DNA of 40,256 nt. Source: an uncultured Eisenbergiella sp. (GTDB lineage Bacteria > Bacillota > Clostridia > Lachnospirales > Lachnospiraceae). The stretch lies in the NCBI GenBank assembly GCA_947598825.1, contig CANQFM010000026.1, forward strand, positions 1 through 40,256, in the 5' to 3' direction. The notes beneath the pieces are model-generated. The model did not search any database, had not been told where the DNA came from, and saw nothing but the letters and a program-made list of their open reading frames with translations. Positions 16,313 to 21,590 of the stretch are shown here, one piece after another. A program made the translations under genes and the position numbers. How positions within the stretch are numbered: position 1 is the stretch's first letter; every line of letters starts with the position of its first letter.

Positions 16313-17188
16313 TTATAACCGGGTGCCGGTCAGCAGTTCGTAAGCCTGCAGGTACTTTTCAATGGTCTGATCCACGATGTCCTGGGGCAGCGTCCAGTCG
16401 TTGCCGGGATGGGATTTCAGCCAGTCGCGGGCAAACTGTTTGTCAAAAGAGGGCTGGCTGTGTCCCGGTTCATAACTGTCGGCGGGCCAGAAACGGGAAC
16501 TGTCGGGGGTCAACATTTCGTCCCCCAGCACGATCTGGCCGTTTTCGTCCAGGCCGAACTCGAATTTGGTATCTGCGATGATGATTCCTTTCTCTGCGGC
16601 GTAGTCCGCACATTTCTGATAGAGGGCGATGGTGTAGTCCCGCAGCTTGGAAGCATATTCCTCTCCTTTACCCGGAAAACGCTTTTCCAGATAGGCTACG
16701 CTCTGCTCATAGGAAATGTTCTCATCGTGGTCGCCGATCTCCGCCTTGGTGGAGGGAGTGTAGATGGGCTGGGGCAGCTTATCGGATTCCTTCAGCCCTT
16801 CCGGCAGCCGGATGCCGCAGACCGTGCCGTCCTTGACATAGCTGGCCCAGCCGCTGCCCGTGATATAGCCGCGGACAATGCATTCGATGGGCAGCATATT
16901 CAGCTTCTTGCACAGCATGCTGTTGCCGGTAAACCGGGGCTGTTGGAAAAAGGCCGGCATATCGTTTACATCCGTGGAGATCATATGGTTTGGCAGGATG
17001 TCCCGCGTCATCTCGAACCAGAATCTGGACATCTGGGTCAGTACCGTTCCTTTTTTGGTAACGGTGTTGTGCAGGATCACATCGAAACAACTGATGCGGT
17101 CGGTGGCCACCATGATCAGGCTGTCGCCGTTGTCGTAGATCTCCCGAACCTTTCCTTCTTTTATGGGTTTTCTTGTCTCTGCGTTCAT
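16313..17188 (-). CDS. purC: SAICAR synthetase
   Basis: Phosphoribosylaminoimidazole-succinocarboxamide synthase (291 residues) joins aspartate to CAIR with ATP in purine synthesis. Recognisable motifs are the N-terminal EGKVREIYD (ATP loop), [12 protein letters not shown], and the family signature [15 protein letters not shown] at 17188 gives the expected N terminus [18 protein letters not shown], with GAGGT ten bases upstream. The frame is open to 17431, but that part is AT-rich and unlike the family. It stands alone, without other purine genes. I found no purine riboswitch in its upstream region. Confidence 0.95.
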
Positions 17189-17270
17189 ATTCTTTTTTAC
17201 CTCGCTTGTGCGGATTTTGCCGGAACGTAACCGGAAAAACGCCTTTCGCCATGCGAACGGCTGATATCCA

Positions 17271-17300
17271 TAGTTAAACAGATTTTGGGGGAAAATGCAA
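17271..17300 (-). promoter_or_regulatory. Weak candidate promoter of purC
   Basis: On the minus strand, TTGCAT (complement of 17295-17300), an 18-bp spacer and TAACTA (complement of 17271-17276). It is plausible only. The rest of 17189-17480 shows no gene. Confidence 0.25.
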
Positions 17301-17552
17301 GGGGTTTTCAGGGAAAGATGCTGATAAAAAGGAATGACTATTGATTGAGGGAAAAATTGATGATACAACTGCATTACTAAAAAGCGGTGGCGTGTTGTCC
17401 ATGGAATAGACAAATAGATAAAATACATCAACTTAATTGATTAAATTTACCTCTTGCGGAATAGCGATGGCTATGGTAAGCTGTGTATCGATGCAGCCGC
17501 ATGGCAGGAATAAGGACGGCAGCGCAGCCATCGAGCCGTATGCGGGTGCAGA

Positions 17553-17914
17553 GAAACGCGAGGATGAGGAATAGTAGCTTTCTGTTGGCAATCAGAGAAC
17601 TGCCGGGCGGTGCGAGGCAGTCAGGTGCAGAGAGGGAACTGACCTCGGAGCGGCTGTCTGAAGGCCGGCAGGAGAAGCAGCAAGGCGGTTACGGGGAAAC
17701 CAATTCCGCAGACTGGATCCCATATCCTGCAGCACGGTTGTGTAAGCGCAGACGGAATTCCCGCCGTGAAAAGGGGAAAGGCATCGCGCTTTGCTTTGAA
17801 GAAGCCTGTGCCGGCGAGTGCATGGCAAGTCCATGAAATAGAGTGGTACCGCGCAAGAGGGTTTTGCGTCTCTATGAAAACGTCTCCGAGGGGAGTTTTC
17901 ATGGAGACGTTTTC
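17553..17914 (+). promoter_or_regulatory. T-box leader, predicted tRNA-Leu (CUG specifier), controlling leuA
   Basis: A complete T-box riboswitch. Stem I holds the AGTA element (17573-17576), a distal AGAGA..GGTGCGA region near 17594-17618, and GAA followed by the specifier CTG at 17639-17641 (leucine). The T-box sequence AGAGTGGTACCGCG lies at 17840-17853 inside an antiterminator (17838-17843 with 17870-17875; 17851-17856 with 17864-17869). Its TGGT bulge would pair with a tRNA 3' end having discriminator A, as tRNA-Leu has. The terminator is a perfect 12-bp stem, 17876-17887 with 17903-17914, with its T tract inside the 3' arm. Uncharged tRNA-Leu should allow transcription into leuA. No convincing promoter is visible at 17432-17552. 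Confidence 0.9.
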
Positions 17915-17981: not shown

Positions 17982-19976
17982 ATGAATGTGAAAGAAAAAT
18001 ACGGAAAATCTTATTTTATGCCCCCGGTGGTCACCTACGATTGGGTGAAGAAGGATACCATCACGAAAGCGCCCCTCTGGTGCAGCGTGGATCTGCGGGA
18101 CGGCAATCAGGCGCTGATCGAACCCATGAGCCTGGAGGAAAAACTGGAGTTTTTTAACCTTTTGATCGAAGTGGGTTTTAAGGAGATTGAAGTGGGATTC
18201 CCGGCGGCTTCCGATACGGAGTATCAGTTTGTCCGGGCGCTGATCGAGCGGGATATGATTCCGGAGGATGTGACCATCCAGGTATTGACCCAGGCCCGGG
18301 ACCACATTATCCGCAAAACCTTTGAGGCGGTGAAAGGCGCGCCCAGGGCCATTATCCATCTTTATAATTCCACTTCTGTGGCCCAGCGGGAACAGGTATT
18401 TAAGAAGAGCCGGGAAGAGGTGAAGAAGCTGGCCGTGGACGGCGCAAAGCTGTTGGCGAAGATTGCATCGGAGATGGAGGGCAATTTCGCCTTTGAATAC
18501 AGCCCGGAGAGTTTCCCGGGTACGGAAGTGGATTATGCGCTGGAAGTATGCAACGCGGTGCTGGACGTCTGGAAACCGACGCCGGATCATAAGGTTATCA
18601 TCAACATCCCCACCACTGTGCAGATCGCGATGCCCCATGTGTTTGCCTGTCAGGTGGAATATCTGCATAAGAACCTGAAATACCGGGATGCGGTGGTCTT
18701 GAGCGTCCATCCCCACAACGACCGTGGCTGCGGCGTCAGCGACGCGGAGTTTGGCGTGCTGGCGGGCGCGGACCGCATCGAGGGCACCCTGTTTGGCAAC
18801 GGCGAACGCACAGGCAACGTGGATCTGGTGACGGTAGCCATGAATATGGTCTGCCACGGCGTGGAGCCGGGGCTGGATTTTCATGATGTGAACCGGATCC
18901 GCCAGGTGTATGAGCGGCTCACCGGGATGCGCGTACATGAGCGCACGCCCTATGCGGGAGATCTGGTTTTCACGGCTTTTTCCGGTTCCCATCAGGACGC
19001 GATCTCCAAGGGTATGGCCTGGCGGAAAGAGGGAAAGAGCGGAGAGCGCTGGGATGTGCCATATCTGCCCATTGATCCCAGAGATGTGGGGCGCGAGTAC
19101 GAGTCGGATGTCATCCGCATCAACAGCCAGTCCGGCAAGGGCGGCGTCGCCTTTATCTTAAAGCAGAACTTCGGCATCAATCTGCCGGATAAGATGAAAG
19201 AAGAAGTGGGATATCTGGTCAAAGGTGTGTCCGATCAGCGCCACCAGGAGCTGTCTCCGGCGGAGATCCATCAGATCTTTGAAGATAAGTACATCAACCG
19301 CAGCGATGTGTTCGCCGTGCCGGAATGTCATTTCAAGCAGATCGACGGCATCCAGGCGGAAGTGACGATCGAGCAGAACGGCGTCCGCCGCGTGGTGAAC
19401 GCCGGCGGCAACGGCCGCCTGGACGCGGTAAGCAATGCGATCAAGGCGTATTTTGGGATCAGCTACGAGCTTTCCGTCTATGAAGAACATGCTATTTCCC
19501 GCGGTTCTTCCTCCAAAGCCGCGGCCTATGTAGGCATTTCCCATCAGGGAAAGCTTTACTGGGGCGTGGGGATCGACGAAGATATCATAAAGAGTTCCAT
19601 TGCGGCGCTGGTTTCCGCAGCCAACCGGCTGGCCCAGACGGAAAACTGCATGGAGGGCCGGGAGGAGCGCATCATGGAGATCATGAACTATATCCAGAAC
19701 CACTATGTGGATGTGACGCTGGAAGGGCTGGCGGAGACATTCCACCTGTCCGCGCCTTATCTGTCCAAATATATCCGGCAGAAAACCGGCGAGACTTTCC
19801 AGGAGGCTGTGAAGCGGGCGCGGATGAAAAAAGCCCGTACCCTGTTAAAGGATTCCGGGCTGAAGGTGGAAACGGTGGCCGCAAACGTGGGCTATGAAAA
19901 TGTGGAACATTTTAACCGTCTGTTTAAGAAGACTTACGGTATGACGCCCCTGCAGTTTAGGAGTCAGAACCGGTAA
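17982..19976 (+). CDS. leuA: 2-isopropylmalate synthase fused to an AraC-type DNA-binding domain
   Basis: The first 550-odd residues are a type 2 2-isopropylmalate synthase, which condenses acetyl-CoA with 2-oxoisovalerate at the start of leucine synthesis. The metal/substrate motif DLRDGNQAL (37-45), the HPHND metal site and the C-terminal regulatory domain ([10 protein letters not shown]) are present. The family normally stops near 550-560. This protein has 664 residues, and from about residue 565 carries a full AraC/XylS helix-turn-helix domain: first helix pair [20 protein letters not shown], then [20 protein letters not shown] and the closing GMTPLQFR. No stop codon or frame change separates them. 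A ribosome binding site and ATG within the linker (19661-19676) could also yield the DNA-binding domain alone. ATG 17982 follows AAAGGAG. Expression is under the T-box. Confidence 0.95.
19661..19676 (+). promoter_or_regulatory. Possible internal translation start within leuA
   Basis: GGAGGAG (19661-19667), six bases, then an in-frame ATG (19674-19676, Met565). Strength and spacing match the window's genuine starts. Initiation here would give a 100-residue protein consisting only of the AraC-type domain. The Shine-Dalgarno bases also encode Glu-Glu, so chance is possible. Confidence 0.45.
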
Positions 19977-20195: not shown

Positions 20196-21590
20196 ATGTT
20201 TATTGGCAGAGAGCGCGAGCTTACGGCTCTGGACAAGCTGTATGCGTCAGGTCGATTTGAATTTGCAGTCATATACGGGCGGCGGCGTGTCGGAAAAACG
20301 GCGCTGATCAATCAGTTTATCAGAGATAAGAATGCCATCTATTTTATGGGCGTTGAAAGTAACGCCAGGCAAAATCTCGAAAATTTCAGCAGGAGCATTT
20401 TGGAATTTCATACCGGGATCGAGACGGGAAGCTCCTTTCTTTCCTTTCAGGCGGCTTTGGAGTATGTGTTCAGGCTGTCCGAAAAAGAGCGGCTCATACT
20501 CGCTGTCGATGAATACCCTTATGTCGCCCGGTCCTCGAAAAGCCTCGCCTCCACGCTCCAACTGCTCATTGATAGGTACAAAGAAAGCTCGAAGCTGATG
20601 CTGATCCTCTGCGGATCGTCCATGTCCTATATGGAGGATCACGTTCTCGCCTATAAAGCGCCACTTTACGGCAGGCGGACAGCGCAGATGAAGATCGTTC
20701 CCTTTGACTTCGAGGAGACCTGCCGTTATTTCCGGCATTTTTCCGCTGAGGATAAGGCGCTGGTCTATGGGATCGTCGGCGGGACTCCGCAATATCTGCA
20801 GCAAATGGACGACGCGCTGAGCGTCGAGGACAACATTAAAAACACCTATTTAAATCCAGCCTCCGCCCTGTTTGAAGAGCCGGAAAACCTGCTCAAGCAG
20901 GAGGTGCGGGAGCCGGCACTTTATAATGCTGTCATCACGGCGATCGCCACCGGCTCCACCCGGATGTCGGAAATCTCCGGCAAAGTCGGGGAGGACACCA
21001 ATGTGTGTTCCACATATGTGAAAAACCTTGTTTCCCTTGGGATCATCCGAAAAGAGACGCCCTATGGGGAAAAGGCATCCCGGAAAGCGGTTTATTCCAT
21101 TGAGGACAATCTGTTTCGCTTCTGGTATCGCTTCGTGCCGGAGAACAATTCCATCATCGCCCGCGGCGCGGCCGACCTTGCCTACAAGCGCATTGAGCCG
21201 TTCCTGCCCGACTATATGGGCAAGGTGTTTGAGGAGATCTGCAAACAGTATCTTTGGAAGCTGCTGCTTGCCGGAAGGTGCCCGGTACAATTTTCCTCCC
21301 TCGGCCGTTGGTGGGGTAATGACCCGACAGAAAAGTGTCAGGCGGAGATTGACATTCTCGCTCAGCAGGACAAAACCACCGCTCTTTTCGGCGAATGCAA
21401 ATGGACGAAGGAGAAGATCGGCCTTGACGTCCTGGACACGCTGGTCAAGCGCAGCGGCCTGTTCCCGTATCGAAAGAAGTACTTCTACCTCTTTGCCAGG
21501 TCCGGTTTTACAAAAGGGTGTATCGACAAGGCGAAGGCGATGGGGAATGTGACGCTGATAAGGTATGGGGATGTGTTAAAAAACCTATGA
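20196..21590 (+). CDS. ATPase (PF01637-like) with C-terminal DUF234/PD-(D/E)XK-like domain
   Basis: A 464-residue protein of the archaeal-type ATPase plus DUF234 family, whose function is unresolved. Residues 1-200 form the P-loop ATPase: Walker A GRRRVGKT (28-35) and Walker B ending in D105-E106. A winged-helix-like region follows (about 240-310), then a conserved RFWYRFV segment and FEEICKQYL. The last hundred residues contain EID (384-386) and ECK (400-402), the spacing of a PD-(D/E)XK nuclease core, and both halves look intact. GGAGG precedes ATG 20196. It has its own promoter beneath a palindrome, follows the leuA terminator, and is trailed by a lipoprotein gene 56 bp on. Nuclease activity is an inference. 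Confidence 0.85.
   Translation: MFIGRERELTALDKLYASGRFEFAVIYGRRRVGKTALINQFIRDKNAIYFMGVESNARQNLENFSRSILEFHTGIETGSSFLSFQAALEYVFRLSEKERLILAVDEYPYVARSSKSLASTLQLLIDRYKESSKLMLILCGSSMSYMEDHVLAYKAPLYGRRTAQMKIVPFDFEETCRYFRHFSAEDKALVYGIVGGTPQYLQQMDDALSVEDNIKNTYLNPASALFEEPENLLKQEVREPALYNAVITAIATGSTRMSEISGKVGEDTNVCSTYVKNLVSLGIIRKETPYGEKASRKAVYSIEDNLFRFWYRFVPENNSIIARGAADLAYKRIEPFLPDYMGKVFEEICKQYLWKLLLAGRCPVQFSSLGRWWGNDPTEKCQAEIDILAQQDKTTALFGECKWTKEKIGLDVLDTLVKRSGLFPYRKKYFYLFARSGFTKGCIDKAKAMGNVTLIRYGDVLKNL

Follow-up and report, generated by a model that had tools for sequence, protein, structure and literature searches.

A 2-isopropylmalate synthase fused to an AraC-type DNA-binding domain in Lachnospiraceae, and a predicted operator upstream of its gene

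The window (the whole stretch of 40,256 nucleotides of an uncultured Eisenbergiella sp. analysed here) contains an uninterrupted 664-codon frame at 17982-19976 on the + strand, encoding a type 2 2-isopropylmalate synthase (LeuA) followed by an AraC/XylS double helix-turn-helix (HTH). The features of the gene and its upstream region are as follows.

17417..17455, + strand: predicted operator, TTAAAATAAATCAATAAAANTGATTAAATTT (upstream alignment, matrix and genome scans).
17419-17445, + strand: core of the predicted operator, TAAAATACATCAACTTAATTGATTAAA, quasi-palindromic (alignment and matrix).
17454..17482, + strand: predicted leuA promoter, with a weak -35 (TTGCGG, 17454-17459), a 17-bp spacer and an extended -10, TGGTAAGCT (hexamer at 17477-17482).
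17552..17876, + strand: T-box-like leader (Rfam), specifier CUG (Leu) at 17639-17641 as read by eye.
17982..19976, + strand: leuA-HTH, type 2 2-isopropylmalate synthase fused to an AraC-type DNA-binding domain (664 aa; frame and domain searches).
17982..19637, + strand: LeuA part, residues 1-552, made up of TIM barrel, IPMS_D2 and the leucine-binding regulatory LeuA_dimer domain (Pfam and alignment).
19638..19667, + strand: linker of variable sequence, residues 553-562 (over residues 553-565 pairs of proteins are on average about 30% identical).
19668..19973, + strand: AraC/XylS double helix-turn-helix domain, residues 563-664 (Pfam, conservation and dN/dS).

The purC gene is divergent (16313-17431, - strand), and the other neighbour, at 20196-21590 (+ strand), is an ATPase-like ORF for which NCBIfam gives no match at E<=1e-20. 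No leu or ilv gene is seen adjoining leuA in the window, and among 69 loci the neighbours vary, none being common widely enough to serve as a clue.

A first-pass annotation had described a complete type 2 LeuA and a full AraC/XylS HTH domain within this single frame, and profile searches bear this out with exact coordinates. The Pfam models HMGL-like (residues 32-308), IPMS_D2 (327-394) and LeuA_dimer (423-550) match in order, all above their cut-offs, and the C-terminus matches HTH_18 (583-661) with 81.8 bits against a cut-off of 33.6 and HTH_AraC (622-660) with 55.6 bits against 26.6; HMGL-like, LeuA_dimer and HTH_18 are the three domains for which that annotation had proposed a search. The NCBIfam model of the type 2 LeuA subfamily, PRK03739, gives 805.5 bits against a cut-off of 455, and NCBIfam AraC-like regulators match the C-terminal part with scores below their cut-offs. 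Since the LeuA chains of known structure (1sr9 and 3fig) stop within one residue of the position aligned with residue 551, the HTH domain is a true C-terminal addition.

Residues R39, D40, E176, H243, H245, H337 and Y361 align with catalytic residues of the Mycobacterium tuberculosis enzyme and are invariant in 32 rows. Among the residues used for this comparison are D81, H285, H287 and H379 of M. tuberculosis LeuA, which we take to be catalytic. R80, E218 and Y410 are described as catalytic in PMC10464499, which also places leucine binding in the C-terminal regulatory domain. This domain, LeuA_dimer, directly precedes the HTH in the fused protein, and catalytic and nucleic-acid-binding parts are, by sequence, combined in one polypeptide. 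A protein search of the window's genome found the fused protein as its sole LeuA and no second one; the 15 other matches comprise 14 to the HTH part, the genome being rich in other AraC-type domains, and one weak partial match to the barrel.

The window derives from a draft genome of 110 contigs, and an assembly or sequencing artefact joining leuA to a neighbouring AraC gene was therefore considered. We give this reading a negligible probability: the 119 fused proteins that were fetched (repeats between collections included) all measure 660-676 aa, and some come from named isolates, namely Butyrivibrio hungatei DSM 14810, Eisenbergiella porci, Roseburia porci and Falcatimonas sp. MSJ-15. An artefact or a chance fusion is refuted by the recurrence of the same architecture in independent assemblies and by its wide spread. 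Within Eisenbergiella the full-length fusion is present in 10 of 13 genomes; two of the others are incomplete (58 and 68% complete) and give no match, and the third, G005, has only an unfused paralogue. Such unfused type 2 LeuA paralogues (about 50% identity; 49% for that of G005) occur in six genomes of the genus (L018-L023), five of which also carry the fusion.

In a sample of 250 Lachnospiraceae genomes, one per genus, a type 2 LeuA match at E<=1e-100 is found in 230, and at least 60 have a full fusion among the matches listed (about 615 bits and above), counting as full those that extend to query residue 655 or beyond. Elsewhere in the order, 52 genomes of other families match at E<=1e-150 and none of them is fused. 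Fusions are found in three of 70 matching genomes from other families of the class (G576, G442 and G578) and in one of 19 in the phylum sample (G1013), both at E<=1e-203, a threshold that would miss very diverged fusions. A scan of GTDB species genomes, limited to the closest relatives (at most 80) and including named isolates and MAGs, contributed 79 loci, and in 68 the alignment covers the LeuA part and the HTH alike. Absence of the extension from all close relatives had been named in the first-pass annotation as grounds for rejecting it; the extension is in fact widespread and conserved among them. Many loci are repeated between collections (e.g. L009 and L024, or G049 and L101), and separate dereplicated counts were made. 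L041 was excluded for an in-frame stop in a poor contig, and the unfused state of G085, G161 and G234 rests on scores (E about 1e-178 to 1e-181).

The added domain is conserved to about the same degree as the regulatory domain that it follows. Among 81 fused proteins of less than 93% identity, mean pair identity is 62% for the HTH, 63% for LeuA_dimer and 30% for the linker. For nine sequences of the genus dN/dS is about 0.06 over residues 1-420, 0.12 in LeuA_dimer, 0.39 in the linker and about 0.08 in the HTH, with saturated pairs left out (6 of 36; 17 for the linker) and values that are rough because dS is near saturation; they indicate that the HTH is under purifying selection. Residues Y593, S595, K596, Y597 and I598 of the first HTH and E642, H643, F644 and R646 of the second are each kept in at least 78 of the 81 proteins and, on our reading of the AraC fold, fall in the recognition helices. 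An appendage that served only for structure or oligomerisation and did not bind DNA would not be expected to keep nearly invariant residues in both helix-turn-helix stretches, nor to co-occur with a predicted operator as described below, and we consider this explanation very improbable.

Alignment of the leuA upstream regions of the genus revealed a single conserved element outside the T-box, and a seed built from it matched 5' of most fused genes and not of unfused ones. The refined matrix, from 90 distinct sites, has the consensus TTAAAATAAATCAATAAAANTGATTAAATTTANCCCTT, followed at a fixed distance by TGnTAnnAT. With a score threshold of 14, set by eye after the separation was seen, the operator is present in 110 of the 114 fused loci whose upstream sequence reaches 600 nt or more, the four lacking it being L036, L084, L107 and L195. 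Two loci, L014 and L016, have too little upstream DNA, and two others that were set aside because the contig ends before the HTH (L085 and L088) both carry the operator. In the dereplicated rows of the tree described below, 40 of 43 with an HTH (two of the 43 being split genes) and none of 53 without one have the operator, three of the 99 rows having been left out for upstream sequence shorter than 400 nt.

In cross-validation between divergent halves, the best score among the 62 loci counted as unfused was exceeded by 36 of 38 and by 63 of 76 fused loci; the 62 include L150, where a contig end at residue 503 hides the state. A held-out set of 21 fused genomes was reduced to 20 by dropping one identical to a training locus (G049, L101), and 16 of these 20 score above 14; the exceptions are G229, G182, G257 and G207. 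At L048 the best operator is about 1340 nt 5' of leuA, with T-box-like sequence after it, which points to an extended leader or to an insertion; the best operator is more than 1300 nt away in three fused loci in all.

In a quick maximum-likelihood tree of the LeuA part only (99 rows) the fused rows lie in one region. The fewest state changes on this tree number seven, at least three of which are forced by well-supported branches. L132 and L133 lack both HTH and operator and are nested in a group of 15 rows with 98% support, 13 of which are fused. We read the history as one gain of the HTH and several losses, which the tree fits but does not prove. Independent contrasts between HTH and operator number two on well-supported branches (seven on all), and on average 1.9 of the two are concordant; this agreement, found in nearly all pairings, is suggestive and not significant alone. 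The independence of the co-occurrence is limited because the fused genes belong mostly to one clade.

Intermediate arrangements are also found. In 68 non-fused loci the DNA downstream of leuA (up to 2.5 kb) was available, and an HTH is present there in L134, L142 and the defective L041, besides one chance-level match. In L134 (G062:C54) it is a separate short ORF in another frame, with its own ATG just after leuA, and apparently represents a split gene. In L142 (G075:C6) it follows directly on an A8 run, in the -1 frame, and helix 1 is not preceded by any usual start codon; this junction may reflect frameshifting or slippage, giving both forms of LeuA, or a one-base assembly error, and searches returned no relative of its own genus with which to compare it. 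Both loci have kept the operator. Genomes outside the family (f30, f213 and f89) contain four fused leuA genes with an operator (L157, L158, L168 and L169), in which transfer may have carried HTH and operator along together.

The distribution of sites across genomes was examined with a model of 64 sites; many of the genomes scanned also supplied sites, and the held-out test of 20 genomes is the fairer one. In 44 genomes (30 fused, two split and 12 taken as unfused) all 23 matches with E<1e-4 are upstream of leuA; 22 of the 30 fused genomes have one, as does the split G062, and looser filters on 12 of the 30 gave the same picture. The best match in the 12 genomes taken as unfused reaches only E 0.016. 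At this cut-off leuA is missed in eight of the 30 fused genomes (G003, G007, G028, G063, G144, G181, G185 and G193), G003 and G007 having contigs with little DNA upstream of leuA. A scan of 39 further fused genomes again placed all matches with E<1e-4 (22 of 22) upstream of leuA, which was missed in 17 of the 39.

Nine matches with E<=0.01 lie elsewhere. Two of them are at leuC (G185 and G313) and one is at ilvN-ilvC (G039), and six are at non-leucine places: a PspA-like gene (G049), 5' of a secreted-type ORF (G182), and inside or at the end of ORFs (G016, G025, G185 and G313). The first of these six (L326, G049:C11, from 1480) is an operator-like site (E 3.0e-4), also with an extended -10, that precedes the PspA-like ORF by about 460 bp, which makes this gene a possible extra target. 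The ilvN-ilvC site is partial, spanning 25 of the 39 positions of the model; it is reversed in orientation and, with a score of 11.3, stays below the threshold of 14.

At leuC, four genomes of the genus of G185 (scores 29.0-35.4) and the distant G193 (24.2) have a site, and a fifth genome of that genus has it with an inserted base and a score of 7.0 (shuffles: 99th percentile 2.4, maximum 13.4). In the other 24 of the 30 leuC loci, that of the window's genome included, there is no site (score at most 2.3), which rules leuC out as a general target in most lineages; the 30 are the best of 39 match places, the nine left out being the weakest (41-48% identity). Upstream regions of leuB have no site in 19 loci (best score 5.2), and leuB-ilvD is ruled out as a target; in the genus its promoter reads as sigma-A-like in the alignment. 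About 7 kb from leuB on its upstream side, G028 has a TwoAYGGAY RNA (L228, 11562-11724; RF01731, 78.1 bits). Predicted own-pathway sites are thus found broadly at leuA, in two lineages at leuC and, more weakly, in one genome at ilvN-ilvC. Since leuB is siteless in 19 loci and leuC in 24 of 30, control in trans would be lineage-specific, and since the scans put strong sites at leuA and few elsewhere, the shared regulon would consist of leuA itself with lineage-specific additions.

The conserved element could instead be the site of another, stand-alone regulator of leucine genes, with the HTH of LeuA doing something else or competing for it. The many other AraC-type domains in the window's genome provide candidates for such a regulator, and the co-occurrence of HTH and element rests largely on one clade. 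However, the element is present in none of the 53 dereplicated HTH-less rows and none of the 62 loci counted as unfused (one of unknown state), it is missing from L132 and L133 although these are nested in the fused clade, and it accompanies the fused genes outside the family, though these helped to train the matrix. Moreover leuA is the only consistent target, as expected of an autoregulator. We regard a separate regulator as rather improbable; most likely LeuA-HTH binds the conserved element and regulates its own gene. Carrying a DNA-binding domain, and with a matching conserved site ahead of its gene, the enzyme probably governs its own production, and the earlier proposal that it could double as a transcription factor gains computational support from the conserved HTH and the co-occurring promoter-proximal element.

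The promoter architecture bears on the sign of this control. An extended -10 follows the operator in 86 of the 90 distinct sites, and the -35 matches TTGACA in only two to four of six bases in 87 of the 89 sites with a clear -10; promoters with an exact TTGACA are found in 27 of 55 unfused genes versus five of 114 fused ones. The operator spans about -70 to -40 relative to the predicted transcription start, the region around which AraC-type activators bind. Given the poor -35, the extended -10 and this position, we prefer a model in which the upstream site would activate when leucine is low.

The leader at 17552-17876 scores 84.9 bits against RF00230, below the gathering cut-off of 93, in a match to the full-length model with E 5.6e-19; it looks like a leucine T-box in spite of the Rfam cut-off. 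The first-pass annotation had proposed control on top of the T-box; the T-box motif is missing from 70 of 114 fused loci (present in 44), so that the HTH may be a substitute for the T-box instead of an added layer of control. The motif occurs in 38 of 54 unfused loci (one of them L150, of unknown state); it was scored as a short pattern in the last 700 nt, and a few T-boxes may be missed. Two leader types can be distinguished among the fused genes: one with the operator 242-825 nt from the start codon and a T-box motif, the other with the operator mostly 90-254 nt from the start codon and no T-box motif.

Where the main site lies no more than 330 nt from the start (70 loci, among them two truncated and two split ones), 35 loci have a second, weaker copy of the operator 40-106 bp downstream (mostly 63-76); many loci that lack the T-box motif carry such a copy, and loci with the main site farther from the start have no second site above the score used. 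The second copy is near or past the predicted transcription start (e.g. L127, L113, L081 and L121). Its offset is 73-76 bp in 19 of 32 distinct cases versus 0.7 expected from shuffles, which ignore shared ancestry. The offsets cluster at 63, 73-76 and 106 bp, and helical phasing is not claimed because it is weak on unique offsets (R about 0.3, n=12) and the clustering is inflated by shared ancestry.

These observations lead us to regard as likely, on sequence evidence, that leuA encodes a bifunctional protein: a leucine-inhibited synthase whose AraC-type domain binds the operator and controls transcription, with leucine in LeuA_dimer switching the binding. LeuA-HTH would be an active synthase inhibited by leucine, its C-terminal domain would bind the operator beside its own promoter and, in some lineages, further sites at leuC and perhaps ilvN-ilvC, and leucine bound in LeuA_dimer would probably switch DNA binding, such that one pocket would govern both the activity and the synthesis of the enzyme. 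The downstream second site of many loci may repress or loop, and LeuA-HTH may act beside or instead of the leucine T-box. A more elaborate two-operator switch, in which a LeuA dimer activates from the upstream site at low leucine and represses through the second site, perhaps by looping, at high leucine, with the T-box replaced in many fused lineages, is put forward tentatively, as a possibility of somewhat less than even chance.

The same protein and site could also respond to something other than leucine, namely a substrate (2-ketoisovalerate or acetyl-CoA) or the turnover state, or act as an unliganded, constitutive autorepressor. PutA offers a precedent in sensing through its catalytic domain, by redox state, and fused and unfused proteins tend to have different loops following EHA, the commonest forms being a 15-letter form and EHALQVGSNSQACAY, with the caveat that the pattern matched only 74 of 119 and 39 of 58 proteins and that some forms are common to both groups. 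Against this, the HTH directly follows the leucine-binding regulatory domain and a GNGRLDA-type motif is kept in all 119 fused proteins. We judge a signal other than leucine to be unlikely, and continue to favour leucine.

Enzymes that act on gene expression are called trigger enzymes, a term reportedly from Commichau and Stulke, and those with their own DNA-binding domain include NadR, Ada and MocR-type proteins. AraC/XylS regulators such as AraC, RhaS and YesN-type proteins share with LeuA-HTH the double HTH domain and a site, predicted in the case of LeuA-HTH, adjoining the -35, and the second downstream site of many fused loci recalls the paired operators of AraC; in these regulators, however, the sensor part is a cupin or receiver domain, whereas in LeuA-HTH its place is taken by an entire biosynthetic enzyme. 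Type 2 LeuA in its unfused form, with a leucine T-box, is the same enzyme without HTH and operator. Trifunctional PutA is likewise an enzyme with its own DNA-binding domain, by which it represses its own regulon (PMC5293562); this domain is an N-terminal ribbon-helix-helix on a catabolic enzyme, in contrast to the C-terminal AraC-type domain on a biosynthetic, allosteric one. Group II biotin protein ligases (BirA) have an HTH and regulate biosynthesis genes, and group I ligases lack the HTH (PMC4016012), in parallel to unfused LeuA; in BirA the DNA-binding domain is N-terminal and the enzyme a ligase, whereas LeuA-HTH is the committed enzyme of the regulated pathway. BzdR likewise combines a domain of enzymatic origin with a DNA-binding one (PMC3602430), but it has turned into a dedicated regulator, whereas LeuA-HTH keeps its catalytic residues in a genome where no second LeuA was found. 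The first-pass annotation knew of no described leucine-pathway enzyme with its own DNA-binding domain, and this agrees with our search of the open-licence PMC literature (subscription papers being mostly outside its scope), which found no description of a LeuA-AraC fusion or other LeuA with a DNA-binding domain.

LeuA is a textbook case of end-product inhibition, and transcription of its gene is usually left to separate devices such as attenuation, T-box, CodY or Lrp. In the fused proteins, which are found in a large family of gut bacteria, the role of regulator appears to fall to the inhibited enzyme itself, for which a likely operator is in hand, and the question is raised whether a single leucine site sets gene expression as well as enzyme activity. 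Loci in the unfused, fused, split and lost states, with the T-box kept or gone, form a natural series for the passage from enzyme to transcription factor and for the way in which RNA control may be swapped for protein control.
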